DNA of 64,000 bases from Sphaerolaimus hirsutus (lineage: Eukaryota; Nematoda; Chromadorea; Monhysterida; Sphaerolaimidae): contig OZ038452.1 in NCBI GenBank assembly GCA_964036195.1, positions 25,617,785 to 25,681,784 of the forward strand. The letters are read 5' to 3'. The notes under the pieces were generated by a model. It saw only the letters and a program-made list of their open reading frames with translations. It was not told the origin of the DNA and made no database searches. A program made the position numbers and the translations under genes. The number at the start of each line of letters is the position of its first letter. Position 1 is the first letter of the stretch. Positions 3,733-63,829 of this stretch are shown one piece after another.

Positions 3733-6360
3733 TTTATTTTTTCTAGAAAAATTCGAAATTTTTTCATTTTTTTCCATATTTTGTTTGAAATTGCAGAAAA
3801 ATGCAGAAACAGTACAAAAAAATCAATTTTACATTCCATATGATCTCGAATTACCCCCCTTGAATTAACCCCCTTCAAAATACCCCCATTTCTTTTCAAG
3901 CTGAGGAAAAATAAACCTCCCTCGAAATACCCCCGTTTGGAATACTGTACATCATGTATGCAATGTACATGATGTATTGATTGCTGCAAATTAGCATCAC
4001 AGCTACACATAGACTACTTTGTGTATATATATATACACATGTACAAATGTAACCTGTTTGGGCACATTTATTACCAGATTTAGGTATGTCTAATCTAATT
4101 TAATCTCTACTATTGTCCTTCACAAAAATTTCTGATGAATGAATAACCCCCCTCGAAACCCCCTCAAATTTTGCTGGTGAAATAATAAACCCCCATGAGG
4201 GTATTTCGAGGTAATATGGTAGATATATTTGCAGCATCACAACAAACAATGTGCAGAAGTGTCTGCGGTTTCAGCTTTGAAGGTGTAAAACATGAAAGTG
4301 TATTAAAAATTCACCAGAAAAATTCAAAAATGCTATAGTTAGATGCCAAAAATTAGAAAAGTCAGAAAAAATTCGAAATTCGAAAAGACGTTTTAGAAAA
4401 AAATCACTTGAAAATTTTAATACTTTTTTCCAGGGGTTTGCCATCATCAGGCACTTGGTACAAGTGAATGAGCCAAACTGAGGGCATATCATAAAAACTA
4501 CCATACCCGATATTTAAAAAGCAGGGGCAGTAGACATTTTATTTGCATATTTCAATTACCGTATTTCCCAGAAATACACCCTCGAATTCCATCCTCCCTT
4601 GAAATACCCCCCAAAATGGACACTATGAAATTATAACCCCCTCCCCTCGAAATACCCCCCCCCAATTGAGTGTAAAGAGAATGTAAATGACAAAAGCTGC
4701 GATTTGGTCCAGGCAATGCAAACACATGTTAAAAATGATGACTGTGTTATGTTAGAACAGGGCGTATACCATCTACATAAACTGGTGGAAAATATAAATG
4801 AGAAAATCACTTAATTGTATTTTACCAATCCCATGTGCAAGCTGTTAGGCTTTCATCTTGTGTGAGGGTGCGCCCTTTATTGTATTTACTATATATACCC
4901 TAGGGGGCACTCAGGCATTTTTTCTGGACAATATAAATGAGAATTCCATACAAATTTTTGTCCCAATGAAAATAAAATTTTGAATAACAAAATTTCTGGA
5001 CATTTGAGATCAAAAAGTTTTTTTAAACATTGGTAGATTGTAAGTATGTGCAACTTTTCTACCCCCTCTGAACCCCCAGAAGCCCCACACAATGATGGCA
5101 TTGTTAATCAAACTAAATTTTTTTTGTTGAGAAAAACAGGTTTGAAAAGGTGGACAATCCACTATCCCAAGCTATTCACGGAGCACATGGGGGCCAGAAT
5201 TACCTTGCTCAGTGTCAGAGGCAACATATGGCTGCTACTGGGCCCCATTTCTGCACTTAAGTATTTTTTGTGGCTAACGATAAAAATGGCCCTGTGTAAA
5301 GAGGGTGACAGCGTGTTCGATGCCTGCAATGTCAATGCAAATTTCAAAATACTTGTGCCCAGTCAATGTTGGGACTAATTATCTGTAAAAAAACCTATGG
5401 GGGCCAATGGGAAATCTGCCATGTATTTATCTAGTCTGAATGGGTGAGACAAAAAACTAGGTCATGTGCAGAAAGTCAAAAATCATGGTTTTTCATTTAC
5501 AATCACAATTTTGATAATCACAAAGTTCAAAATCAATGTTGACATGGCTTCGTGGCACATGTATGCATATTGGGGGCCATTTTTGTGTGGGGGTAGTGGA
5601 CTTGGGGTCAAAATATACCCCCAACTTACCAGTCGGTCAAAAGATGGCTTTGGGCAAGCCATAAGGAATTTTTATTTTTTGAAAAAGCACCAAACAGAGT
5701 GTATTCATCGCTTGTGTTGGCAGCACACAAAAAATTGACTGTGCACTTTACTGCAGCTGTAATTTTGTATTTTTCTAAAATTCTCATTTATATTTTCCGG
5801 GAAAAAATTGGAAAAAACATTCATAAATCTGTAGCAGCAGAACAGGGGGGTGCCATGGGGTGCCAGTTGGCATATATGTAGGTAAATGTTGTGGGCACCC
5901 CCACAACAAATGGCAACCATATTGGACTGCACGTTTCCTTGTGAGACGTTTTTCTCTCAACACGTTTTTCACGTTTTTCTCTCAAAATTTTCACTCTGAA
6001 AAAATAAACCCCCGGAGGGTAATTCGAGGAAATACGGTAAATACCAAATTGTCTACAGAAGCGAGATTTAGCATTTTTATGCAAGTGCTTTCAGACACCG
6101 CAGTCTACACATCTGTGATCAGCATAGCGATCGCGTTTTCGGTCCATCCTCCCAGGTAGATGAAATATAACCCACAATCATGGACGAGCGGCGCGCGCGC
6201 ACAATTCATGAAAATCACGTAGCGCGGCCGAGCAAAATGGATTAGCAGACTTTGCTGGGCCAACAGCGATCAAACAGGGACCCGCGTCAGCTGAAATTGA
6301 TGGCTGCACGTATCACTTCAGACAAATGTCCATTCGCAAATGCATAAAATCGGTGTCCAA
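3733..6360. other. No gene recognised; fragments of several repeats
   Basis: The stretch has truncated G-tract elements (3845-4222; 4557-4750; right end 5990-6040) separated by AT-rich sequence rich in TTCGAAAA units. Short open frames at 5046-5378 and 5466-5738 have no splice context, no recognisable motifs and ordinary AT-rich composition, so they are not called as genes. Confidence 0.5.
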
Positions 6361-7913: not shown

Positions 7914-8313
7914 GGGCCAGTTCCGCAAGTTGTAGAGTACTCTCCTTTTCACTCTTCACTTTACTCTTTTACTCCACTCTACTTTTTACTCCACTTTTTT
8001 AATTTCCACGCGTGGAACCGGCACCAGGGTGCAGTCCCAAAATGTCAATTGTGTATATGTGTGTAACCAAATCTTATGTTTTTGTATCCAAATCTTATTA
8101 TCAAATATAAGATTTGGATACAAAAACATAAGATCTGGATACAAAAACATAATATTTGTATACACAGTTAACACTTTGGACCTGCCCCCTGGTGCTGGTT
8201 CCACCAGTGGAAAGTTAAAAAGTAGAGTAAAAAGTAAAGAGTAGAGTAAAAAGTAAAGTGAAGAGTGAAAAGTAGAGTTTTCCTTTTTACTCTACCACTT
8301 GCGGAACTGCCCC
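7914..8313. mobile_element. CWG-flanked element, GGGCCAGTTCC ends
   Basis: The left end is GGGCCAGTTCCGCAAGT and the right end is the reverse complement of GGGGCAGTTCCGCAAGT. CAG lies on both sides (7911-7913, 8314-8316), a 3-bp duplication. Sub-terminal arms are degenerate AAAGTAGAGT units. A further insertion fills the middle from about 8005 to 8210, with GTGGAACCGGCACCAG at one side and an inverted partner at the other. Confidence 0.75.
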
Positions 8314-8316
8314 CAG

Positions 8317-9793
8317 GTGCCAATCCCAAGCCCTGTAAAGTGTAAAGTAAAGTGTCAAATGTAAAGTAAAGTGTCAAGTCAAATGTCAAATGTAAAGTCA
8401 GGTGTCAAATGTAAAGTCAAATGCAAAGTCAAATGTCAAATGTAAAGTTAAGTGTCAAATGTAAAGTCAAATGCAAAGTCAAGTGTCAAATGTAAAGTCA
8501 AATGTCATGTCAAATGTAGAGTAAAGTGTCAATTGTCATGAAAAACATAAAATGTTCACGAAAAAAATAAAATATTTAATGAAACTCCAAATTTAATCCA
8601 ACTGAAATGGACTCCGACATGTATTGTGTCGTATGTATCGTGAATCCTCAACACCAATCATTGGCATATTGGCAGATCTTAAATGTGAGATATGTTTGGT
8701 ATTCAGATCGACTGCTTAAATTTAACGGAGATACAATTTGGCAGTCAGCCAAAAATTTCGTAATTGCATAAAATAAAAAAAAGAAGGCTAAAGATAGGTA
8801 TACAACCAGTTCCGTGTACTATCTCACATCTCTTACCAGGTATTTAGACAAAAATAGCAGTTATGAAGGAGAAAATTTGCAAAATAGAGTAAATTTTAGC
8901 GATTTTGAGCAGAAATTATGGAAAACTTGCTTAAGGTACAATTTACAACCGGTAACTTGGACATGAGCCAACTTGTCATACATAACCCGATGCAAATTTA
9001 ACAAATCTGACCGGATCATGTATGCGAAGTTGGCCCATGTTCAAGTTGCCGGTTACGTACTGTACGAACGAGAGTGAAAGCTGTCGAAATGAGAGTTTTT
9101 GCTTAAAATCACCAAAATAAGCTCCATTTTGACCATCTTAATCATCTAGGTATACGCATGTTCAAAATCTGCTTTTATCTATAGAGATTACGAAAGTTTT
9201 GGCTGTCTGCCAACTTCACATAAGGGGTAACTATCTGAAAAATCGTCATATTTCGAAATCGTTGGTTTGTTGCCAAATGAACAAGGATCAACGCGCGACG
9301 TTGTTAAAAAAAATATGTAAAGGGGGATTCAATCGTACATACAAAATTGATTCTTGGTCATTTGGGAACAAAGTGACATAAAATACTTATATATTTTTGG
9401 CTGACTGCCAAATTGTATCTCCGTTAAATTTATATTCGTATTTTATATTTATATTTGTATATCTCCGTTAAATTTATATTCGTATATTACATTTATATTT
9501 GTATTTTATATTCGACGTTGCGATTTCACGATACGTCCGACACGGATATCGTTACTTTCCTTTTAATATTTTTCTTTTTTTGTGAATATTTATCGTTTGT
9601 CATTACATTTGACACTTCACTTGACACTTTACTTTACATTTGACACTTTACTTGACACTTTACTTAACATTTGACACTTGACTTTACATTTGACATTTGA
9701 CTTGACACTTGACTTTACATTTGACATTTGACTTGACACTTGACTTTACATTTGACACTTTACTTTACACTTTACAGGGCTTGGGATTGGCAC
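8317..9793. mobile_element. CWG-flanked introner-family element, large copy
   Basis: It begins GTGCCAATCCCAAGCCCTG and ends with the exact reverse complement CAGGGCTTGGGATTGGCAC. CAG flanks it at 8314-8316 and 9794-9796, so the insert reads GT...AG on the plus strand. The arms are long runs of degenerate GTAAAGTCAAATGTCAA units. A second fold-back element (about 8700-9440) is nested in the middle. No exon is recognised on either side, so intron function is not claimed for this copy. Confidence 0.8.
8715..9440. repeat. Nested fold-back element
   Basis: The left arm ATTTAACGGAGATACAATTT with GGCAGTCAGCCAAAAAT pairs with the right arm, which contains the same bases reversed and complemented. 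A second inner pair surrounds ACCGGTAACTTGGACATG near 8950 and its partner near 9050. It is non-coding and sits inside the element at 8317-9793. Confidence 0.6.
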
Positions 9794-20477: not shown

Positions 20478-20695
20478 TCCCTGGTTCACTTCCAGACCGT
20501 GTAAAATGCCCTGTAAAATGTCGAGTATCATGCAAAGTGTCAAAGTCCTGGAAAATGCACTGAAAAATGGCAAACATATGTTTTCCATTTTACAGGGCAT
20601 TTTACATGACTTTTGGCACTTTGCATGACATTGGACATTTCACAGGGCACTTTAAAGGGTCTGAAAGTGCTCCCTGGTTCACTTCCCGCAATAGC
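20478..20695. mobile_element. Diverged introner-family element with direct-repeat flanks
   Basis: The interior has the GTAAAATGCCCTGTAAAATG and CAAAGTGTCAAAG units typical of the CWG-flanked family, folding back on itself around ACATATGT. The ends differ: CTCCCTGGTTCACTTCC stands in direct orientation on both sides. The usual GTGCCAGTCCC terminus is missing. It may be a degenerate copy or a copy moved together with a flank. Confidence 0.5.
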
Positions 20696-36456: not shown

Positions 36457-39400
36457 ATGCGCGCCGAGGAGAGCGTGCCGCTGCGCGACAAGGGCGACGG
36501 GTCGGGTGCCAGTCCCAAACCCTGTAAAACGCCCTGTCAAATGTCAAATGTCACGCAAAGTGTCAAAGGTCATGTAAAATGCCCAGCAAAATGGCAATGG
36601 CAACTCGGTTGCCATTTCGCAGAGCATTTCACGTGACTTTCAACACTTTACACGACACTTGACACTTCACAGGGCACTTTACATGCTCCGGGACTGCCCC
36701 CAGGTTTCGTTCCACCACCCTACCCCGTGGGCGACGGGCCGCACGATGGCAACAAGAGGGTGGAGCACCTGGACCAGGTGGTCATCGAGGGCGACCCGCC
36801 CAGGGAGAAGTGGGACAGCTGGTTCGAGTTCATGCTGTCCTGCGTCGGCTACGCCATTGGATTGGGCAACGTGTGGCGCTTCCCTTATCTGTGCTACCAG
36901 AATGGAGGCGGTTGGTTTGGGGGGGGGAACGATGGGAAATTGTGGGGAGCATGACAGTAGGCGTCATGACAAAGATCATGCTAAGTGGCATATGTCATGC
37001 AACGTGTGAAATGTCATGTCGACTGTTAATAAAAGTGTCAAATTTCAAGAAAAGTATCAATGTCAAGCAAAGTGTCAATTTTGTATCCAGATCTAATGTT
37101 TTTTTTTAAATCCAGATCTTATGTTTTTGTATCAAGACCTTATGTTACTGTATCCAAATCCTTATTAGTAAAATCTTTTGCATACAATCTTAAAGCTTGC
37201 ATACAAAAACGTAAGATCTACATTTGTTATGACAAATGCCATGCAATTGTCATGACAATTGACGCTTTGCTTGAGATTTGTCATGACAATTGACGCTTTG
37301 CTTGAGATTTGTCATGACAATTGACACTTTTCACGACATTTTACATGACATTTGACACATAACTTTACATCTACCATTACATCACTGTTCGGGTATTCAA
37401 TCCAGTTTGTGTTCCCAACCCTAACAGTAACTATTGGGGCACAGCTCTCATGTAAATTCACAACTATCGGTGCCGTTGCGGTGCAAGGTACCTGACGCAA
37501 CGGATCCTTCAGACGGTACCGGTGCGGACATTGCCACATCCACCGGTACTATTCATCTACTAAATAAACGACGACATCCCCTTTTCAGGTGCCTTCCTCA
37601 TACCCTACGTCATCTCAGTGATTTTTTGCGGCGTGCCCCTCTTTGTGATAGAGACATCCTGGGGACAAATGCTGTCAGTTGGTGGATTGGGCATGTTCAA
37701 AATATGTCCATTATTTAAAGGTATTTTATAAAGTTGATTTTATTTTTCAATTGAGGTGTAAATTTATACCGTATTTCCTCGAATTAACCACACTTAAATT
37801 TAGCCCCCTCGAAATACATCCAGGTCTGCGCGACCTGGGGAAACCCCCTCCCCTCAAAATTTGCTGGCGAAAAAATAAACCCCCTGGGGGTATTTCAAGG
37901 AAATACGGTAGGTAAATAGCTTGAACCATGTATAGTGATGGAAAAGCGCCAGGAAAAATGGCGCCAGGCGCCAATGGCGCCATGGCGCCATTCAAAAAAT
38001 TGGCGCCGGGCGCTAAAGGGCGCCAGAGAAAATGGCGCCAGGCGCCAAACGGCGCCAACGATAAAATTCACTGTTTCAGTGAATACCGTATTTCCTCGAA
38101 ATACCCCCCGGGGGGTGATTGTTTCATAGTGGTCCCGAGAGGGGGGGGGGTTAAACGAGGGGGGAGGGGGGGGTATTTCGAGGGGGGGGGGTTATTATTT
38201 CCCACGAAAATTTTTGACAACCAAGTACGAAATTGTCGTCTGAAACGTACGCAGACGTCGATAAATGCAACAAAAACCGCCATTTATAAGGTTCTGTAGA
38301 CTAATATTAGTACGTAGATGGTATAAACACTGTTCTCACATGATTCCGACATTGTTTTAACGTGTGTTCTGCACTACGCAGAACACAAACTGCAGTATTT
38401 GTCATGTACGTTCTCTTTACACTCAATTTGGGGGGGGGGTATTTCGAGGGGGGGGTGATTGTTTCATAGTGGTCTCGAGAGGGGGGGGGGTCAAACGAGG
38501 GGGGGGGTATTTCAAGGGGGGGTATTTCGAGGAAATACGGTATATCATCACGGAAGCAGGTATAGAACAGGAACGTGCTATACCATTTTTCTCATGCTGC
38601 CTCAAGCCACAAAAATCATCTTATCATGAATATTATATGCCATATTTCCTTGAAATATGCCCAGGGGGCTTATTTTTTGACAGCAAATTTTGAGGTGTTA
38701 ATACAAGATTAATATTAGGTAAAATATCTATTTATTGCTTGTCACATACTCATACAGGCAGATGCAACAAAAACTACAATTATAGAGATGCATAAGTGTC
38801 TATTGTTGCTTAAATTATTCCTCCCCTGAATACTTCCTCCTCAAAACGGTCTGACGAAAAAATAATCCTTGAGGGGAATATTTCAAGCCAAAAAAGTACA
38901 AGCAAATACTTAAATACAGTAAATACGGTCCCACGTAAGGAAATTACGGTGTTTCGTCGAATCAACCTCCCACAAAATACCCCCAAGTCTAAGCAAGCTG
39001 AAAAAACCATAAACCCTGTGAGTATTTCAAGGAAATGCAATGCATTGTAAATAGGTAATCAATGATGTCAGGGCTTGGAAAGAATTATTGACGTTTTTCT
39101 AATAGTGGGTCAAATGTGAATATTTGCAGTTTATGTGGTATAAAACCATCAACATGAAGTTAAACTTACAATGCTAGCAAAAAACTAGAAACATAGCAAA
39201 AAATCAGAAACATGAATGTGTTAAACACCACCAAAATAACATCATTTGGCAGATAAGGCAGTCGAATGTGAAAAATTTGAACCGTTCATCGCTGCATCTT
39301 GGCGCCATTTCCGGCGCCATCAAAAACAATGGCGCTGGGCGCCAAATTGGCGCCAGCGAAAATGGCGCCAAGCGCTAAGGGCGCCATGGCGCCATTCGAA

Positions 39401-47312: not shown

Positions 47313-50300
47313 TTAGCTCAGCATAGCACCCATATAGCAGCAAGTATTCGGGCACTGATTCTGTGGCTGTTCCACCTGGCAAACAGACTGACCAGGGCAC
47401 TGGAAGTTTTGGCCACACTGTCCAATTGCTTGGCCAGTTTGGCAACCACACTGCTGCTGTGCTGGGCCCAATGGACCAGGCTGGTTGTCTGCAAATAAAA
47501 ATTGAATTGAATGGGTAAATATTTACACAAACACAAACACATAGATCCACAAAGTCTCAGGTATGCTGCTTCAAATTGAAAATCACTCACTAGGGTCGAA
47601 TGTGCATACTTGGAGCTGCTCATTGAAGATTGTGCCGGGGGCACAGCACATTTTCCTCCATCTGCCGCAGAACTCGTTACCGGGGGCTGGCTGGCACTGC
47701 AGGTAGAATTTCGGGTCCTGGTGAGCCTTCAATGGGTCGATCATCCAGCTGCAGATACCATTTTCCTGTGCTTGAGCAACACCTCCTTGTTGAGCCACTG
47801 CGAGATAAGCATTGTTTCCATTGAGTACATAGTTGATCAATGATTCACACAGAAAGACAAACCAAGTGGGCATGGCTGAGGTGACACGATAGTTGGCTGG
47901 TTGCATCCACACTGCTGGGAGGGCTGGCTCGGGCACGCGCAACCAGATGGCTGGGGCACGCTGGGGTATGGCACTGGCACTGATGGGTACACTGGTGGTT
48001 GAGTGTAGATTGGCTGGGTTGGGATGACCTGCATGTTGGGTAGCCCAAATTCAGCTGGAAACATCTGTTGCTCAAGATTGGTAGTTTGTTGTTGTTGTTG
48101 TTGTTGTTGCGAATCCATAGGAGGAAAAGCATTGTGTTGTATCAGTGTGTCAGTTGGGTTCTCATACATAGCTAAAGACAGCACTTCATTTTGGATGGGA
48201 ACTGGTTGTGGTGGTTGTATTTTACCTTCTAGATTGTTAGTAGTAGTGAGTTCTCGTCCTGGTGAATGTTGATTGTGTTTAGTTTCTACTTTATTATCCA
48301 TTTGTTCAATTTCTTGGGCCTGATCACTAATGAAAAATTGCTGGCTGGCAAAAGGCGAATCTGGGGAATCAATCTGTTGAAGATTGATAATTGGATTTTC
48401 TTGTGATGGCTGAAAATTGGCCAGCTCCCCAGCATTCTCCGAAGGAGGTGCTAGGCTCTGTAGACCACTTAGACCTGGTTGCACAACATTTATATTATTT
48501 TCAAGATCTGGATTAGTAAATGAATCCTTCTGACTGCCTGCACCTGGACTGAAATCAAAGTCAGGAACAAAACCATTCACAGCCTCTACAGGGTTCTGTA
48601 AACTCTCTCCAGGTTGAACTTGCTCCAAATTGACAGCTGTTGGCAAATCAGCAATTTCTAGCCCAGGAACTCCTTGAAATGCAGGGAAGTTGAACATGGC
48701 ACCATTTGAATCTGGTAGTAGTGAGTTTGCACTATGATCTGTAATGAACTGGACTTCAAAATACTCAAAATGGAATGGTATTTTGAGTTAAAATTAGAAT
48801 AAATAAATTAATCACTACCTTCAACATCATGTTGTGGCAGTTGAAAGCTGATTAAAGATCTACGCAAGCGCTTCTTGTTAAACTGTTGCACTGTGCGACC
48901 AATGTGAGGATTGAAGAGAAATGCCATTATGGCGTGATGGAAAAGTTGCCAGAACAATAAGTACCGATTTCTCCCCAGTTTGTTATGGGATAAATATAAA
49001 TATGTATTAAGTGGTCCCATTTTAAAGACATTTTACACCTATATTTTTCCCCCTGGGGCTCTTAGTTTGAAGTATATTACATTGAGACTGACATGACAAG
49101 TGGGCACCATCCCAGTTAATGAATAATATCATTGAAAAGTGAACAGGGAATGCCTTTAAACTACCATGAAAATCCACTTAGTTAATCTCTACAACTTTGC
49201 GGAAATCGGGCGCTATCTTTCTAGCATTTTTTCCATCAATAATTACCACGTCGGGCTGGTAGACAGTGCCGCAGCCGGGCGCGCCTCCGCACTGCTGGGG
49301 GACAGCTTGCACGGGCACCTGCGAGTAGACAATACTCGCTTGTATCCTTGTTTAAAAGTGTTCATAATAAGTGCGCAACTTAAAATACCTATTTTGGCTG
49401 CCATAGAAAAGCATATTGAATCAGACAAGGCCAGAATCAAAAGAATTTATGCCAGTTATACTGGAGAGGACGCTATACATTGAATGCTACCATATTTTGA
49501 TGAATAGGGCTACGTAAATAATCGCACACCAAATTACCCTCAAAGTGGGATAAATGTGATGAGACATTTTTAAGTCCATTAATTTATTCAGATGTGAAAT
49601 GGTAGGTTCAATTAGACCACAACAAACCGCCTGGCATCCCCCGGTCTGGGCGCCGCACAGGGACACTTGAGCGCGGCGAATGGCCGACCGACCGACGCAG
49701 CGCCGCTTCACGGGCACGAACTCGAAGCCGGGCTTGCACTTGCGCAGGATCCACTGGCCCAGGTCGGGCCTGAGTGGCGGGGAACGTGTGGATGTGGGTG
49801 GAGGGAATGTAATGCAATGGATGCTATCATATTTTGATGACTAATGTTACGCGAAAAGTTCATCCAAAGTGGGAACGGTGTGATCAGACGAGGACATTTT
49901 TTCAATGTCCGTCGGTTTATTCAGATGGGATATGGTAGTTTTTACTGTAAGGTGTGCCATCAGTGTTCCCACAGGTGGACACAGACACCCAACCGCCAGC
50001 CCACAAACCTCTGCTGCTCCTCTGGAAGGTTGATGCACTCCAGGTAGTAGTCGGTCTCGTTGGTGGGCCGGGGGATGGCCGCCTCCAGCAGGCAGATGTC
50101 GTTCACCACGGCGCGCCAGTGCTCCAGGCGGCCCGACTTGGGGTCCTTGGCGAGCGCGCGCAGAAGCGCCTTGTTGCTGGTGTCCATGTCGAGGGAGGAG
50201 CACACGGCCGCCACCGCCGCTGATATTGGGTGGGCGGTTGGGGTTTGGAACTTGGTGGTTTGCATCAATGCAAATTGGTTTTAAAATAAGGGTATAATGG

Positions 50301-56000: not shown

Positions 56001-59000
56001 GGGTATTTCGAGGATATACGGTAGTCGGATAAGCGATAGTGGAATTATTCTTCCCAGGGACGTATCCAGGATTTTTGAGCGGGGGAAGGCTGCTTGTTTA
56101 CGGGGGCCGGCGAACGGGGGGGGGGGCTCAGCCCCCCCCTAAATTTTTTCCCTATAGAGGGACGGAAAGGCGTTTTGGCGCTAGCGCCATACATAGGCGC
56201 CACGCCATGGCGCCATTGACATTGGCGCCAGCACCAGGAACCGCTTTATATGTATGTAAATATGCATACATATACAGCGAAACTCGCAAAAAATGTGTTC
56301 ATTTTCAACGAAATTGGTCTAAAGGGACCGATCCGTTGAAAATACCATGCGCGGAGAAGCAATTGCGCGCTAGCGCGCAATTTTTCAGAAACATCGAAAA
56401 ATATATAGGAAAAGTTGCATTTTCCGGGACGTTTTAGGTCTCACCCCGGGAAGGGGGGGTGGGCTGCAGCCCCCCCCCCCCCCCCCCCCCCCCCCTGGAT
56501 ACGTCCTTGATACTTCCATCAAGTAATTTGGAGGGGAAGTTACTGAAATGTGACTTAGGTATATTTAGGTGAAAATTATCATACCATGGATCTACTGGAT
56601 ATTCTCATAATGAATCATTTTTCCGTCAACATTTTTTTTGCTATTTCTCTCTCTCAGCACCTTGAACGAACATCGAATCAAACAACCCTCATTCACAAAC
56701 ACATAAGTATTTTCATGCGGCACACCTTGCGACAATTTCGGCACGCGTATTCCAATCGGCAGCATCAGTGAAAGCCACAGTAAACATGAAGCTATCGACT
56801 GTGACAGTGTCATTCCTGCAGAATGAAAAAACTTATCATAAAAAAATTCGATATATAATCCAAATACAGGGGTCTCCAAGGGACAGCCCCATCCCCAATC
56901 GGCCAGCTATCTACCGTAAATCATCGAATACCTCCCCCTGTTGTGAGCGTGGGGGAAAATGACTCCCCCTCGAATACCCCCCCTCACTGATTGATGCCGC
57001 AAATGCATCGTGTCCCATCAAAAAACATACGATGAAACCACACAGACCAAAAGAGGCATGGTCTGATTCATAGAATGCAAGTGCAGAGCAGCCGCAGCGT
57101 GCAACGATAATCTCATAAGAATGTTTTACCTTCGGCGGCGACGTATTTACGCTGTTATGTATGCAGTTTTATCCTTTTTTCTGCTTAGTTTCCTGAATAT
57201 TCTGACGAAAAAATAACTCTCCACTCGAATAACTCGACAAAAAAATAACTCCCCCGGTACTATAATAAATATTCGAGAAATTACGGTATCTATCACGGAG
57301 GCAGCTTGGCAGGGGTCTTCTAGATTTTGACCCTCCGGGGGTTGGATAGATACCTGAGCGGCCTCCGGAATAGAGAGTTAGCTGGGCGGTTTGGGGGACG
57401 CCCACCCAACCCTCCTTGGATACCCCTGCCGCTTGGCTATCTATTTATGTAGCAAATTTTGGTAGCTTTCACCCCCAAAATTACTATTTTCGGCCATAAA
57501 AATGGTTACCTCACACATGTTTTTAGTAGCTATTTTTAACCTATATTTTTGCGATTTTACCCCTTTCTGCTTTCTATACCTCGAAAAAATCTATACATTG
57601 AGCCCCCTCCAAGAAATTATTTCGGCTATCTATCCCTCCGCGTGAGCGATTTACTACACACAGTGAGCCTCGCACACGGTAAAAATCATGGAGACCCCAG
57701 ATGTAATCAAGCATAATACCTGCAGTTATAAACCAACACTAGTCTGTAGTTGACGTACGGCTGCCAAAAGGCAAACTCGTTAAACGCCAGGAATTCCGGC
57801 AGGGCGTTGAAGTCAAACGCAGCACCTGGTGCCCGTTGTAAAAATTCAGGGTTCGCATCCAAAAGTCGCTCATAATCGACCAGCCAAAGTCTGGTGCCGT
57901 TCGGCGCGGCCAGGTGGGCAGTCCCAAACCCTGTGAAATGCCCTGTAAATGTCAAATGCCATGTAAAAGACCGTGTCAAATGTCATGTAAATGATCTTGT
58001 GAAATGTCAAATGTCATAATGGCAAAGTGTCAAAAGTCATGTGAAATGCCCTCTAAGGTGGCAAACGTACGTTTGCCATTTTCAAGAGCGTTTTACATGA
58101 GTTATGACACTTTGCAAGACATTTGACATTTAACGGGGTCTTTCATATGACATTTGATACAGGACATTTTACAAGGTCTGGGACTGGCACCAGGGGGGCG
58201 TGGCCTAATTCATCGACGAATCGCCAGAACAGCAGTCGCTGATTGGTGCCGTTTGTGTTTACGGCGAACGGCTGCCGCACGATAACGAACACGTCGAAAC
58301 GCTCGTTGAGCACGAAGCGAGACCGCAAGTCGTACAGCTGGAATTTTTGTGAGGTTCCGCACGAGACATAGGCATACAGGATTCGCACGTAAATATATTT
58401 CAACTTTCTGATTCAGGAAATAGCCATTCTAGCCGAGAAATAGCAAGTTTTAGTGACCACACAGACACATTTGTGACCGGAGTAAACAAGAGTATCAGAA
58501 CACATTTTTCTACATGCAAACTTTCCTCCGATTTTAAATTTTTACCACAAATGCCTTGTTCAGAAAAGAAATAATAACCTTGTCTTAATAACAAGCCGAA
58601 AATACTAGACACAAAAACACCCCCACGTAGGGTTGGAAAAAAATCAATTTTTTTTAAACGCCTTGATAAAAAAAATTGATTAAAAAAATTAAAATCAGAT
58701 TTTTTAAATCGTCCAAAATGGGGGTATAGAGAAAGATTATGTGTATGTTTAGTGTCAGACAATGTATTGTTATGTATGTTGCGGTCATATAATGACTGTG
58801 GAGTCATGGGATAGCATTGTAGTGATTTCTTTCAAAAATATTCATTTTTAAGTCAACTTATTACGTATGTCGCATTTTATCGAATATTCATGACTTCGAG
58901 TGAAGTTCAGCATGGAATAGTGCTTAAATAATTAACGCTGTCAGAGACAGCTCATGCATTGACAGTGATGTTACACACTGTAGAAGTATGTGGGAGCACA

Positions 59001-62000
59001 TTGGCTAAATATTATATACTACACTAGCATATGACGGCTTATTATTATATGGTAGCATGAATAAATGGAAGCTTTTACACTAAAAATGCTTCAAAACCAA
59101 TGAAAACACTACCATTGGTAATGTGTATGAGAAATTGCGCGCTTGCGCGCAAAAAATTGCAAAATACGTAATGCAAATCTACCAGAAATTTTGCCTTTTA
59201 ATTTTTAAAATTAAAATCAGTTTCCACCCTGTGATTTTTTTTAAAATACGATTTTTTAATCAGTTCAAAAAAAGTGCCAACCCTACCCCAACCAACAGTG
59301 TGAACATAACTATCGCTGAGAAATAGCCGCCGGGGAGTCATGTCCACCCTAATATTATACACGCCGCAGAGACAAAACGTCCACATAATGACAGCCAACA
59401 GAAAAGCCAAAATCTGCGTCGACGTGCAACACAACAGCTTGCTGTAGGTTTCGATCGCCTGCCGCTTGGTGGGCAACGGCAAGGACTTGGTGCAGCTACG
59501 CAACTTTCCCTGTGGACGACAGAGAGAGTGACTGCGTTGTGTTGAGTCTGCGGTGGATATACAGAATTATACATAATTGTACTGTGTGATCGATGTAATG
59601 TTTTTGAGTTCAAAAAAATAAAAACAATAAATAAATAAATACAAACACCAACAAGCGTTTTCAGGGTAATGTGTATGAAATGATCATAATTTACAACCGT
59701 CCGCACACGTGCCAATCAGAGTTGTGAAAGTATTGAACTTTCTAAAGTAAACGTAAAGTATTTTGTTTTTACTCACCCCTGAGTACAGAAGAGGTAAAGT
59801 CAATTTTTTACTTCTACACCAAGCGTAAAACAAGAATTTACACTACAGAACATGAAGACTACCTATACCTTTCTTCCTATACTACACAAACTCTCGAATA
59901 ACACACCATTATCAACGGCACCTGACGGGGCATCACCCCCATTGCGCACAGGTCGGCTACCGGATCCGCTGAGCAGCTTGAACATAATCGGCGTGAAGAA
60001 CATCAGTTGCAGCAGCAGGTCAGCGGCGACGCACGCTGCCGCCGCCGCGCAGAACACCACCACGTCTGGAAGGATTTCGATTAAAATAACATAATGGTAT
60101 TTCTATTCGGGCTGCACAATTCCAGCTACCGTATGTCCTCGAATGAGACCCCAGGGGGTTATTTTTTCGTCGGAGTTTTTGAAGGGGAAGTTATCCAAGC
60201 GGGAGTTATTTTTTCCTAGGGGTAATATTTTTATCTGTTGTTGCTGCTGTTGGGTAATATTCTTTTGTATTTTTCGTTTCACACACTGAACTGCATAAGC
60301 AGACCAGGCGTAGCTTCATTTGGTCTGTCTAATTTCATTGATTGTGTTTTAGATTGACCTAACATCTTTTCCACCTATGACAAATGGGGGGGGTATTCAA
60401 GTCTGGGGAGTTATTCAAGGGGGTTTGGGTAATTTTTCTCACTCGGCAAATAGGGGGGGGGGGTGAGTTATTCACGGGGTGTCTTATTCGAGGATATACG
60501 GTAATCGAACCGCGAACCTGGTATGGGCGTGACCAACCCGCCCACAAAAAACGCGGTCACATTGGTGAGCGACGTGACGAGCACGCCGGTGCCGGCCGCG
60601 TCGAGCGCCAGCGCCAGCCGCCCCGGGTCGTCGGCCGCGCAGCCGCCGCACCGGTGCCACGCGTGCAGCAGCAGAAACGCGTCGTCGATGCCTGCGCGGG
60701 TTTGGGTGGGTGTGAAAGAAACACGGGGAAACACCAACGGCGACACGAGGTTTGGGTTGAAACGGGATCCCGAATCACGTAAAAATCCGAGATTTTGCGG
60801 TCCCGATCCCGAGACCTCAATCCCGATCCCGAAACCCCAATCCCGATCCCGAAATGGCTATCGCAATCCCGAAACACCAATCCCGAAAATTAAAAAACAA
60901 ACAATCCCGATCCCAAAAAGTCAATCCCGCTTGAATTGAACCCTACACAAGTGACGCACCAACGGCTAATACGAGAAAAGGCACCACGATCACAATGGAA
61001 GTGATATTCATGTTGAGCCAGCCGAGCGTGCCGAAACCAGCCGCTATGCCCAGCGACGGCGTGCCCAGCGCCACGGCGCACAATGCCGCTCGCCGGGGGT
61101 AACTCTGAAATGAGCAGCATACCTATTTCTGGGCAGTGGTTTCTGTATACAAACGCCAAAAGTTGTCGAGCTTATCTGGCTAGTAAATCATCAAGGTGGA
61201 GATGTTAAAATGGCTTTTTCTGCCATCCTGTATTCATTTTCACGGAACAAGTAATATTTTTAACACCATTTCACTATTTTCACCTAGGTAGGTATTTAAA
61301 AATTTTATCTAACTTAGCCAACTCGAATCATTCGGGAGAATGATTCGAGCCCTGGAGAATAATTCTTACGTCAGGTTTTTTGAGGGGGTACTATTCAAGG
61401 GGGCAATTATTCAAGTTCAAAATTTTCAATCACAAAGTTGGTAGAGCAAATTCCATGACAATTGGTAGTGCACACCGGGTGTGCTGCTTTTGCATTCGAC
61501 GAATCGAACCAGACACAGCTCATTTGCTGGGTCTGTGTTCATCGATTGTTTTTAAAAGTTTTGTGCAGTAATTTCCTTCCATTTCTCGCTCGTCTAACGG
61601 CGGGGTGGGGGTGAATTATTCAAGGGGGAATTATTAAAAAGGGTTATAATTATAATTAATTATATTATTATTATAGGGGGAATTATTCATGGGGAGATTA
61701 TTAAAAAGGAGACTTACCCTAAATCCTCGAATAAGACCCCAGGGGAGTTATTTTTTTCGTCAGATGTTTTTTAGGGGGGGACTTATTCAAGGAGGGAGTT
61801 ATTCGAGGGGGGGGGGGGAGTTATTTTTTCCTCAGAAAACTTGGACACAAATCATTGCTGATGCAGTCTGTCAACTCATGTTTTTCAGGTATTGACCTGT
61901 ACACAACAACAAAAAGATGTGTGTACACTGTAGGGTTGGCCGATGTTTTTTTTAAACGTTTTTTTTTAAAAACATGACGTCCGAAATATTTTTTTTTTAA

Positions 62001-63568
62001 ACATCGGCTGAAATTTTTAGTACTAAGCACTAGGTATTTTGCAAAATTTTTGCGCGCAATTTCACACACAAATTGACATTGTTGGTTGTTTTCATTGGTT
62101 TTGTAGCATTTTTAGTATCAAACCAAGCATGCAGCTATGTGCTCCATGGGTGAATAAGCCGTCATATGTTGCTGTAGTATATAAATTTGAGGTAATGTGC
62201 TTCCATGTACCTCCAGTGTGTAACATCACTCCCAAAGTAACAACCTGCTTTTATAACCTTGTTTGATCACTATTCCATGCCAAACTTCACTCGAAGTCAC
62301 GAACATTCGACTATAAGCCGATATACAAACATGTCGACAAAAAATGGATATTTTTGACACAAATCACCACTTATAATGCTATCCCATGGCTCCACAGCCA
62401 TTATATGGTCATATTTAACATAACAGAGTATTGCCAGTGTCTGATATACCTATATATGTTGACACTAGGTCATATCTGGGAGCTTTAAAAAAACAACGTT
62501 TTTTATTAAAAAAACGTTTTTTTTATAAAAAAAACATCGAGTTAAAAAAACGTTTTTTTCCAACCCTAGTTCACTGCATACACATCATGTATTTATCTGC
62601 TGTCGCTGCCGTTGGCTAATATTCATATGTATTTTGTATTGTATTCTTTCATACACATGGGCAGTTATTCAGGAGGGGGGGAGTTATTTTTTCCTCGCCT
62701 CGCCAACAGGGGGGAGGTATTCGAGGGGGGGAGTTATTCGAGGGGGTCTTATTCGAGGATTTACGGTATTTAAGAGGAGTGATTATTAGAGTACCTAAGT
62801 AAGTTATGTGAAGACGTCCAAATTTCAGAAAGACAAACTATAACTATTCCATCTAAATGTCCGCCAAACCAGGGACGTATCCAGGATTTTTGAGCGGGGG
62901 GGCTGCTTGTTTACGGAGGCCTGCAGCCCCCCGCCCCCCCCCCCCCCCTGGATACGGCCCTGCGCCAAACCAACCATGTGCACCCCATCTCCAGTAGTGA
63001 ACACAACCCAAACGACGAAAAACGCAGCGATGAGCACCCCCACGCCGATGAACGGCGCGTTAGCCACGGCGGCCCTGAGCACTTCGCGCGCCAACACCTG
63101 GGGACAGTCCCAGACCCTGTAAAAGACCGTGTAAGGTGTAAAAGACCGTGCAAGGTGTAAAACGCCCTTTAAAATGTCAGGTGTCATGTGAAAGACCCTG
63201 GGAAATGTCATGTGTCATGTAAAAGACCCTGGGAAATGTCATGTGTCATGTAAAAGACCCTGGGAAAAGTCATGTGTCATGTAAAATACCCTGTTATGTG
63301 ATGTATCCACATCTAATTGGATCGTTTCCAAATGTTATGTTTTTGTATTCGAATATTACTTTGGATTTGAATCTCACAAAAGATTTGGATACAAAGGTAT
63401 AAAATTTGGATACACACGACACTTTTCAGAGTCTTTTACATGACACGTGACATTTCACACGGTCTTTTACTCTTTACAGGATTGTTTACGGGGTCTGGGA
63501 CTGGCACCTGGTCGCCCAACGTCACCGCGTCCAAGGAGCCGGTCACGTTGCGTTCGCGCACGAAATCA
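53012..63568 (-). CDS. Patched-domain (sterol-sensing, RND-like) membrane protein, partial
   Basis: Eleven exons on the minus strand, 5' part beyond the window: 63508-63568, about 62975-63097, 60960-61104, 60518-60691, 59905-60065, about 59297-59509, 58191-58337, 57720-57910, 55285-55496, 53693-53889, 53012-53221. The reading shows the patched/PTCHD order: first sterol-sensing helices with PFLVLAVGIDDAFLLL and LTNVTAFFVGGLVTPIP, a second extracellular domain after MTPRRLFLSDSY, then VGFSVDFTAHVVHRY and FAKTVTLVVLLGLLHGLFLV before a short cytosolic tail. The family (PTCHD/ptr) comprises RND-fold proteins linked to sterol or lipid transport and hedgehog-related functions. In TM4 the usual GxGVDD is AVGIDD. 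Introns are GT-AG where resolvable except at 57911-58190, where no acceptor is present at the transposon boundary. It is close to PTCHD3-like proteins; the exact orthologue is unknown. Confidence 0.85.
54308..55243. mobile_element. hAT-like element with GGCACC interior
   Basis: Ends TAGTGATGTTAAAGGCACC and GGTGCCTTTACATCACTA are inverted. The 8-bp duplication GCTGCAAC is exact at 54300-54307 and 55244-55251. The arms are degenerate GGCACCGGCACC units around a unique AT-rich centre. It lies in the intron between patched-gene exons 55285-55496 and 53693-53889, 42 bp from the upstream exon's donor. Confidence 0.85.
55562..56023. mobile_element. TA-flanked G-tract MITE, young subfamily
   Basis: TACCGTATTTCCTCGAAATA to GAGGATATACGGTA, matching 38084-38542 throughout. 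It lies in the large patched-gene intron upstream of exon 55285-55496. Confidence 0.8.
56055..56509. mobile_element. hAT-like element with CAGGGACGTATCC ends
   Basis: Left CAGGGACGTATCCAGG pairs with the right CCTGGATACGTCCTTG. Flanking 8-mers ATTCTTCC and ATACTTCC differ at one base. A GGCGCC patch (about 56160-56235) and a run of more than 20 C are inside. A 93-bp deletion derivative sits at 62870-62962. Confidence 0.7.
56510..57719. other. Patched-gene intron, no further gene
   Basis: AT-rich intronic sequence. A degenerate GAATAACTC-type repeat with an ATTACGGTA end lies near 56915-57290, followed by a short patch (57297-57430) with GACCCTCC and GGGTTGGATAGATACC of unknown nature. No exon was found. 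Confidence 0.45.
57914..58190 (-). mobile_element. Introner-family element splitting a patched exon, CTG target
   Basis: On the gene's strand it starts GTGCCAGTCCCAGACC directly after a coding CTG (58191-58193) and ends GGGACTGCCCAC before another CTG (57911-57913). The protein frame continues exactly across the insertion (...GHAPL, then AAPNGTRL...), so it interrupts what was one exon. The duplicated trinucleotide is CTG on the sense strand (CAG on the other), so a GT exists at the 5' side but no AG at the 3' side. Arms carry ATGTCAAATGTCA and CATTTTACA units folding on AACGTACGTT. Confidence 0.85.
58628..59285. mobile_element. hAT-like element with TAGGGTTGG ends
   Basis: TAGGGTTGGAAAAAAATC to TTTTTGCCAACCCTA-type inverted ends (right end GTGCCAACCCTA). 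The arms are A/T-rich degenerate AAAAAATTGATT units around a unique centre. Flanking 8-mers match at six positions. It is intronic, 11 bp from the exon ending near 59297. Confidence 0.7.
60127..60503. mobile_element. TA-flanked MITE, GAATAAGACCCC subfamily
   Basis: TACCGTATGTCCTCGAATGA to TTCGAGGATATACGGTA. The arms have AGTTATT and GGGGTTATT units in place of GAAATACCCC, a diverged subfamily. It ends 15 bp from the patched-gene exon donor at 60518. Confidence 0.65.
61715..62768. mobile_element. TA-flanked MITE with nested hAT-like element
   Basis: TACCCTAAATCCTCGAATAA to TTCGAGGATTTACGGTA with GAGTTATT arms. A TAGGGTTGG-type element (61931-62568) with 8-bp flanks GTACACTG and GTTCACTG is inserted within. 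Both lie in a patched-gene intron. Confidence 0.7.
62870..62962. mobile_element. 93-bp hAT-like MITE beside a patched exon
   Basis: CAGGGACGTATCCAGG to CCTGGATACGGCCCTG, with the exact 8-bp duplication CGCCAAAC at 62862-62869 and 62963-62970. It is inserted about 12-20 bp downstream of the exon that encodes a sterol-sensing helix. The open exon frame runs through its first bases. Confidence 0.8.
63101..63507 (-). mobile_element. Introner-like element forming a patched-gene intron
   Basis: On the gene strand the coding CAG at 63508-63510 is followed directly by GTGCCAGTCCCAGACCC, and the element ends GGGTCTGGGACTGTCCC before a second CAG (63098-63100), then GTG TTG. The donor is the element's first two bases and the acceptor AG is in the duplicated target trinucleotide. 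Splicing removes 63098-63507 (410 bases) and rejoins GACCAG to GTGTTG in phase 0. Arms are GTAAAAGACCCTG and ATGTCATGTGTC units; the centre has ATCCAAATCTT-type units shared with 8000-8160. Confidence 0.9.
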
Positions 63569-63662
63569 CTGCGAACAGAGATGACACTGGGCAGGGTGAG
63601 ATGGTCAGGTGGGAATTTCATTACAGAGTATCCGCGATTTTTCGACAGCTCACTTATATCAT

Positions 63663-63829
63663 GGCCCAATCCCAGACCCTGTAAAGTGTTAAGTGCCAAA
63701 CGCTATGTAAAATGTCATGCAAAGTGTCAATTGTCATGCAAAGTTCAGTCATAAAATATTTTGTTGTTTTTTTAATAGACATTTTACATGATGTTTGACA
63801 CTTTACTTTACAGAGCCTGGGACTGGCCC
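63663..63829 (-). mobile_element. Introner-family element in a patched-gene intron
   Basis: Inverted ends GGCCCAATCCCAGACCC and its partner GGGACTGGCCC, with TGTCAATTGTCATG arms. The termini have lost both the GT and AG that the intron-forming copies carry. It lies upstream of the acceptor TCTGTTCGCAG before exon 63508-63568, so it is probably a passive insertion in a larger intron. Confidence 0.65.

Follow-up and report, generated by a model that had tools for sequence, protein, structure and literature searches.

A transposon-like element that coincides exactly with a predicted intron of a Patched-family gene, and its relatives at CWG triplets across the genome

The origin of new introns is a long-standing question, and the locus described here poses it in a narrow form: can a transposable element, together with the target triplet that it duplicates, make up an intron from the first base to the last? 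The window, which is the whole stretch of 64,000 nucleotides that was analyzed, contains a Patched-family gene that occupies the minus strand over roughly 63.6 to 53 kb, as judged from exons read by eye and from Pfam matches. One coding exon of this gene is split by a 407-bp inverted-repeat element lying between two copies of CAG. Based on the evidence presented below, the element is very probably an introner, that is, a non-autonomous DNA transposon (MITE) whose terminus serves as the 5' splice site and whose 3' AG comes from the duplicated CAG. The features are collected in Table 1.

Read on the minus strand, the exon upstream of the element ends with ...GGGCGACCAG, the final CAG being the first of the two copies. 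The element starts with GTGCCAGTCCCAGACCC and finishes with GGGTCTGGGACTGTCCC, and it is followed by the second CAG and by GTGTTGGCGCGC, so that the complete layout is GACCAG/GTGCCAGTCCC...GGGACTGTCCC CAG/GTGTTG. The donor GT is the first dinucleotide of the element, and the preceding CAG completes a donor-like CAG/GTG, while the acceptor AG sits within the second copy of CAG. Past position +3, the donor CAG/GTGCCA is weak. The first-pass annotation had described a 407-bp element with inverted ends that splits the exon at a duplicated CAG, with the GT at its start and the AG in the copied triplet, and direct reading of the letters agrees with it on all of these points, coordinates included.

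Of the 11 bp at each end of the element, 9 match between the two ends, and inverted similarity extends further inward (AGTCCCAGACCCnGTAAA). As RNA, the 410-nt predicted intron folds into a near end-to-end hairpin of -167.8 kcal/mol, compared with a mean of -90.3 kcal/mol for 100 shuffles (z -16.4). The 3' inverted end, read as RNA, contains TTTAC, a branch-like site of the form YTNAY, with 22 nt from its A to the end of the intron. One competing AG, a rival acceptor within the element, lies 19 nt before the intron end (TTTTACAG). Just past the downstream Patched exon there is also a separate short inverted repeat at 62870-62962 (CAGGGACGTATCCAGG...CCTGGATACGGCCCTG), which is G/C-rich between its arms, and G-rich repeats like GGGGGGAGTTATTCGAGG are seen at 62680-62770 and in other places.

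Table 1. Features of the window, with positions counted from its first base.
Feature	Position	Strand	Basis or remark
Predicted intron, 410 nt, GTGCCA...CCCCAG (element plus one CAG)	63098..63507	-	Direct reading; homologue alignment gapless at the junction
Inverted-repeat element, member of a large family	63101..63507	-	Sequence, genome matches, hairpin
Upstream copy of the CAG target duplication, stays exonic	63508..63510	-	Direct reading
Downstream copy of the CAG target duplication, gives the AG acceptor	63098..63100	-	Direct reading
Inverted end with the GT donor, GTGCCAGTCCCAGACCCCGTAAA	63485..63507	-	
Opposite inverted end, GGGACAGTCCCAGACCCTGTAAA; its minus-strand RNA has the branch-like site	63101..63123	+	
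Upstream coding exon piece, ...SDFVRERNVTGSLDAVTLGDQ	63508..63570	-	5' limit approximate
Downstream coding exon, VLAREVLRAAVANAPFIGVGVLIAAFFVVWVVFTTGDG	62984..63097	-	3' limit predicted
ORF with a further Patched SSD exon (GIDDAFLLLHAWHR...)	60468..60857	-	Pfam Patched 2.2e-10
Family copy inside another Patched exon, CTG flanks on the coding strand	57914..58190	-	
Degenerate family copy a short way upstream within the Patched gene, flanking triplets unmatched	63663..63829	+	
Exact-intron copy close to the start of an SLC6 gene, made up of a 195-bp element and CAG	36506..36703	+	
First coding piece of the SLC6 gene, 19 residues plus G from the likely start	36457..36505	+	Start codon predicted
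Degenerate family copy	20483..20673	+	
Family copy of 1,477 bp, CAG on both sides	8317..9793	+	
Degenerate copy adjoining the 1,477-bp copy, CAG 8314-8316 common to both	8028..8313	+	

Once joined, the exons give a match to Pfam Patched of 4.9e-23, which upholds the assignment to a patched-domain gene made by the first-pass annotation. When a 550-residue composite of the exons was compared with 7,999 scored candidates, five relatives were above the cut-off, and three of these five are nematode proteins. Together with a weak match to a nematode-type receptor at another locus (L014, below), these nearest relatives would place the host among nematode-like or other ecdysozoan animals. Joining GACCAG to GTGTTG gives SDFVRERNVTGSLDAVTLGDQ/VLAREVLRAAVANAPFIGVG, and in a BLASTP alignment with a Meloidogyne Patched-family protein (E 1e-18) the sequence is gapless from residue 2 to the mid-forties, with the junction at 21/22. 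Because the alignment is gapless at the junction, the homologue predicts exact removal with zero codons lost or gained, which is what had been claimed from the reading frame. From this continuity of the protein, it would follow that the Patched intron is spliced at GACCAG/GTGTTG. Scans of the 64-kb window with Rfam (gathering threshold) and for tRNAs gave no matches. Elsewhere in the window, a likely chitin-binding Peritrophin-A (CBM_14) protein on the minus strand at 47583-48050 falls just under the Pfam cutoff, and several six-frame ORFs with a recurring YRISSNKTP-like peptide suggest another dispersed repeat.

The element belongs to a family that is spread through the genome, which comprises 348.5 Mb in 762 contigs. 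A 413-bp query has at least 148 matching pieces in the genome, often several per copy, with 40 of 1,982 candidates scored, and the closest other copy among these 40 has 77% identity. The pattern CAG+GTGCCAGTCCCAGACCC, consisting of CAG and 17 end bases with up to 2 mismatches, has 8,842 matches, a count that also includes ends preceded by CTG, which is one mismatch away. The reversed control pattern has 1 match, so the focal element is not the product of chance. In 20 random 10-kb stretches, 10 copies were detected with both ends, which by rough extrapolation corresponds to about 17,000 copies genome-wide. Paired copies are mostly about 110-600 bp long. Terminal inverted repeats are evident from both sequence comparison and the hairpin. 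The 1,477-bp copy, the one copy checked in this respect, has no listed stop-to-stop ORF of at least 120 aa inside it. At 8028-9793, this copy and its degenerate neighbor stand head to tail with one common CAG, as if the duplicated CAG had been a new target.

The copies of the family are not all independent. Two loci (L049 and L050) are duplicates with identical flanks. Additionally, flanks on one or both sides are common to L004, L008, L011, L013, L015, L017, L019, L022, L023, and L026, which indicates a family copy carried inside a larger repeat at these loci.

The family has a 3-bp CWG target duplication of fixed length. Among the matches listed, pairing of the C1 end lists (81 places of CAG+GTGCC, 89 of CTG+GTGCC, and at least 100 of CTG+GGGGC) yielded 24 copies with exact ends, one GTGCC and one CTG+GGGGC, and 21 of the 24 have the same triplet on both sides. 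The form CAG/GTGCC...GCCCC/CAG was found 21 times and the mixed form CTG/GTGCC...GCCCC/CAG 3 times, where the 850:722 marginals given below predict about 13 and about 11 (p 8e-4). In two further C1 copies, which duplicate a single locus and share its flanks, both ends are GTGCC and both flanking triplets are CAG. A mixed sample comprised 43 pairs after 11 duplicate loci had been dropped, and 34 of these pairs had strong ends; identical triplets, all of them CWG, flank 19 of the 34, while CAG/CTG mixtures flank 5 and other triplets 10. Permutation gave a mean of 14.1 identical pairs and reached 19 or more in 148 of 10,000 trials. The correlation between flanking triplets in the mixed sample alone is weak (Fisher p 0.028); the C1 pairing is the better test. 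Copies whose two flanking triplets are CAG and CTG, and so differ in the middle base only, were seen at L004, L024, L027, L028, L051, and L053 and at the C1 places 7947230, 9559686, and 12116288. These copies may be mutants, recombinants between copies, or the results of an odd duplication step.

The orientation of the triplet is slightly biased. Exact genome-wide counts are 850 for CAG+GTGCC, 722 for CTG+GTGCC, and 989 for CTG+GGGGC. Before the GTGCC end, CAG is found in 54% of cases (850 vs. 722; binomial p 0.0014). The genome-wide excess of CAG is real by this simple binomial test but small, and a small excess is expected if most copies lie outside coding exons.

Copies of the family also appear to form exact introns in other genes. 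In a random 10-kb stretch (L041), a MAP3K2-like kinase domain is interrupted at KYCRQILQ/GLAYLHEQ by the minus-strand copy at 493-672. The borders of this copy are CAG/GTGTCA at the donor and CCCCAG/GGT at the acceptor, and the protein read across the junction matches PDB 9p6a at 1.5e-44, gapless at that point. Another six copies were taken from the listed C2 places without prior sight of their flanks. One of them, L055, interrupts a beta-1,4-galactosyltransferase and keeps its frame; PF13733 is matched by the joined protein at 2e-17 over residues 46-102, with the junction at 51/52 and only six matched residues upstream of it. In L052 the frame is kept, with 51 open codons on one side and 118 on the other, and L054 has 34 and 109 open codons on its two sides. 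L051 is open, has mixed triplets, and shows homology on one side only, to zinc fingers downstream of the junction; in L053, no frame is open for 12 codons on both sides. L056 is ambiguous, and in this draw four of the six copies are not clear introns.

Further candidates came from other sampled loci. At L014, a chemoreceptor-like gene is split in frame, and a match to 7TM_GPCR_Srv (7.6e-4, below the curated cutoff) spans the junction. The copy at L002 keeps the frame and is flanked on each side by a long open stretch. The joined proteins of L052 and L002 matched no Pfam or NCBIfam family, and neither matched PDB convincingly (best E 0.94 for L052, none for L002). Pfam gave no match for the joined protein of L054, nor for L033, L046, L016, L003, L027, L009, L043, or the left flank of a second L041 copy. 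In the window, the 195-bp copy in the SLC6 gene has the donor TCGG/GTGCCA and the acceptor CCCCAG/GTTTCG, with the triplet CGG on the left and CAG on the right. This intron would be in frame from the likely ATG of the gene, and the exon downstream of it matches PF00209 at 4.3e-16, with homology that stops short of the junction. L027 has CTG/GTGCCA...CCCCAG in frame and no homologue. At L046, the copy at 4295-4471 lies between CAGs and starts with GC (CAG/GCAACA), and it is a possible GC-AG intron. Judged solely by protein continuity, copies of the family would coincide exactly with introns in unrelated genes, namely the Patched, MAP3K2-like, and galactosyltransferase genes, the Srv-like receptor gene, where the match is weak, and the SLC6 gene, where the homology is short of the junction.

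A codon-score test set 45 pairs against random CWG sites, and 8 of the pairs scored above the 95th percentile of these sites (1.8), where about 2 would be expected. This test is a weak guide, as the exons beside four of the eight top pairs sat in the codon training set. Read GT-first, seven of the eight top pairs end in AG. L009, the eighth, and likewise L027 score best when read from the other strand, on which they begin with GG. Most of the sampled copies carry no sign of an exonic location in this test.

Exact coincidence with an intron could also arise if an element entered, or largely replaced, an intron that already existed, in which case the intron position was not created by the element. 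A copy beside an Ig-like exon (L012), for which an apparent older donor was recognized upstream by eye, is of the kind that this history would leave. In the Patched and MAP3K2-like genes, however, the coding sequence abuts the element and the second CAG, and no other intron sequence is left. Moreover, the two flanking triplets are copies of each other, which is what insertion into an uninterrupted CAG would leave. A pre-existing intron is thus considered very unlikely.

The Patched gene itself contains a counter-example, the copy at 57914-58190. On the coding strand this copy is flanked by CTG, which provides no terminal AG, and exact GT-AG removal is therefore impossible. When the copy is removed together with one CTG, the resulting FVDELGHAPL/AAPNGTRLWLVDYE resembles a nematode homologue, with a one-residue gap near the junction. 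TG 3' splice sites exist as a rarity. This insertion could be a lesion, either recent or polymorphic, or it could be spliced at a TG 3' splice site or removed in some other way. A search by eye for a frame-keeping GT-AG pair found only AAAT/GTCCTG with CACAG/GG, which would add 15 residues, has a weak donor, and was judged unlikely.

One other way of removal would be precise excision of the element and one duplication at the level of DNA, in place of splicing. Such excision would also account for exonic CTG copies, and the exon parts around 57914-58190 do join well after exact loss of the element and one CTG. Nevertheless, the GT...AG borders and the excess of CAG favor splicing, and to our knowledge no DNA-level elimination has been described for elements of such kind, so that excision is regarded as extremely improbable. 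The CTG-flanked copy also bears on a simpler explanation, in which an ordinary MITE has inserted into exons, the interrupted genes are broken alleles or pseudogenes, and borders of the form GT...AG result by chance from the triplet that was targeted. This would agree with the occupation of CAG and CTG alike by the family, with a copy in the same gene that is not exactly spliceable, and with the non-exonic appearance of most sampled copies. On the other hand, the split kinase, Patched, and galactosyltransferase genes are conserved, the exon pieces that flank the elements are open and in frame, and the exact genome counts lean toward the splice-competent orientation. An ordinary MITE without a role in splicing therefore seems unlikely.

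The favored explanation remains that the element is an introner, and a mechanism can be proposed from the sequences. The wider claim of the first-pass annotation, that the family creates introns, is supported by independent copies in other genes and by the matching CWG triplets, with a limit to insertions at CAG on the coding strand: the CTG copy in the same gene is without an AG. A MITE, mobilized by a transposase encoded elsewhere, would insert at CWG and duplicate the triplet. Where the coding strand reads CAG, the insertion would be a ready-made U2-type intron, in which the upstream CAG and the first bases of the element form the donor CAG/GTGCCA and the downstream CAG supplies the acceptor AG. 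The spliceosome would use exactly these GT and AG sites, with the near-palindromic hairpin perhaps holding both splice sites together and the YTNAY site near the intron end serving as a putative branch point. If the element and one CAG are spliced out, the protein is unchanged. Because the ends are inverted repeats, the element is much alike both ways round, and it is CAG or CTG on the coding strand that decides splice competence. Only insertions at coding-strand CAG give an exact intron.

A more far-reaching proposal is that an animal genome has been invaded by introns throughout by a CWG-targeting, Harbinger-like MITE and that nothing but the triplet determines what follows, a coding-strand CAG giving a perfect intron and CTG a lesion. 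The case for this proposal is evenly balanced. If it is true, a genome-wide strand count would make selection for splice competence readable, and exonic CTG copies that persist would need another exit, such as GT-TG splicing. The same element at CAG or at CTG is a built-in control within one genome, and this control could gauge the share of insertions spliced at once, the purging of unspliced insertions, and the number of introns added per family.

Among known transposons, PIF/Harbinger elements have a 3-bp duplication, TWA or CWG in some, and MITEs are among their members. The criterion for membership is a cognate DDE transposase and a Myb-like protein with the same inverted ends. The present family is likened to PIF/Harbinger MITEs by duplication and ends alone, that is, by the 3-bp CWG duplication and by inverted ends starting with G, and it is filed as an introner and not as a Harbinger element. 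Among introners, Huff et al. reportedly described the elements of Micromonas and Aureococcus in Nature in 2016. A limited literature search, with subscription papers mostly outside its scope, found no report of a CWG-targeting introner family in a comparable animal.

Introners are an established kind of element. The survey by Gozashti et al. (2022; PMC9860276) describes repeats serving as introns, many families of which have target duplications and/or inverted ends, and several ways in which splice sites can be split between element and duplication. Other sources mention introners as a known source of introns elsewhere (PMC9169325) or deal with tunicates (PMC13326754). According to the same survey, introners among animals and land plants occur in only two groups, both of them animals, with copepods named (PMC9860276), whereas the nearest Patched relatives here are from nematodes. 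The Aureococcus introners are DNA-transposon-like and combine direct repeats and inverted ends with splice motifs of the canonical type (PMC7789003), and these three properties are also found here. The hosts and target sites of the Micromonas and Aureococcus elements differ from those of the present family, and one Aureococcus family has 8-bp duplications and a net exon gain of 12 bp (PMC9860276), in contrast to no gain here. The Amoebophrya introners have hairpin-forming inverted repeats and direct repeats of 3-5 nt over the exon/intron borders (PMC7789003). Inverted-repeat hairpins and short direct repeats are thus common to both, but the Amoebophrya introners are defined mainly on non-canonical splice sites, while the borders here are canonical GT...AG. 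Lastly, a Chrysochromulina family carries its own 5' splice site and co-opts the 3' one (PMC9860276), and the present family is alike in its own donor and co-opted acceptor. The two differ in that the Chrysochromulina introners have 4-bp duplications and no inverted ends (PMC9860276), while the family described here has a 3-bp CWG duplication and long inverted repeats.
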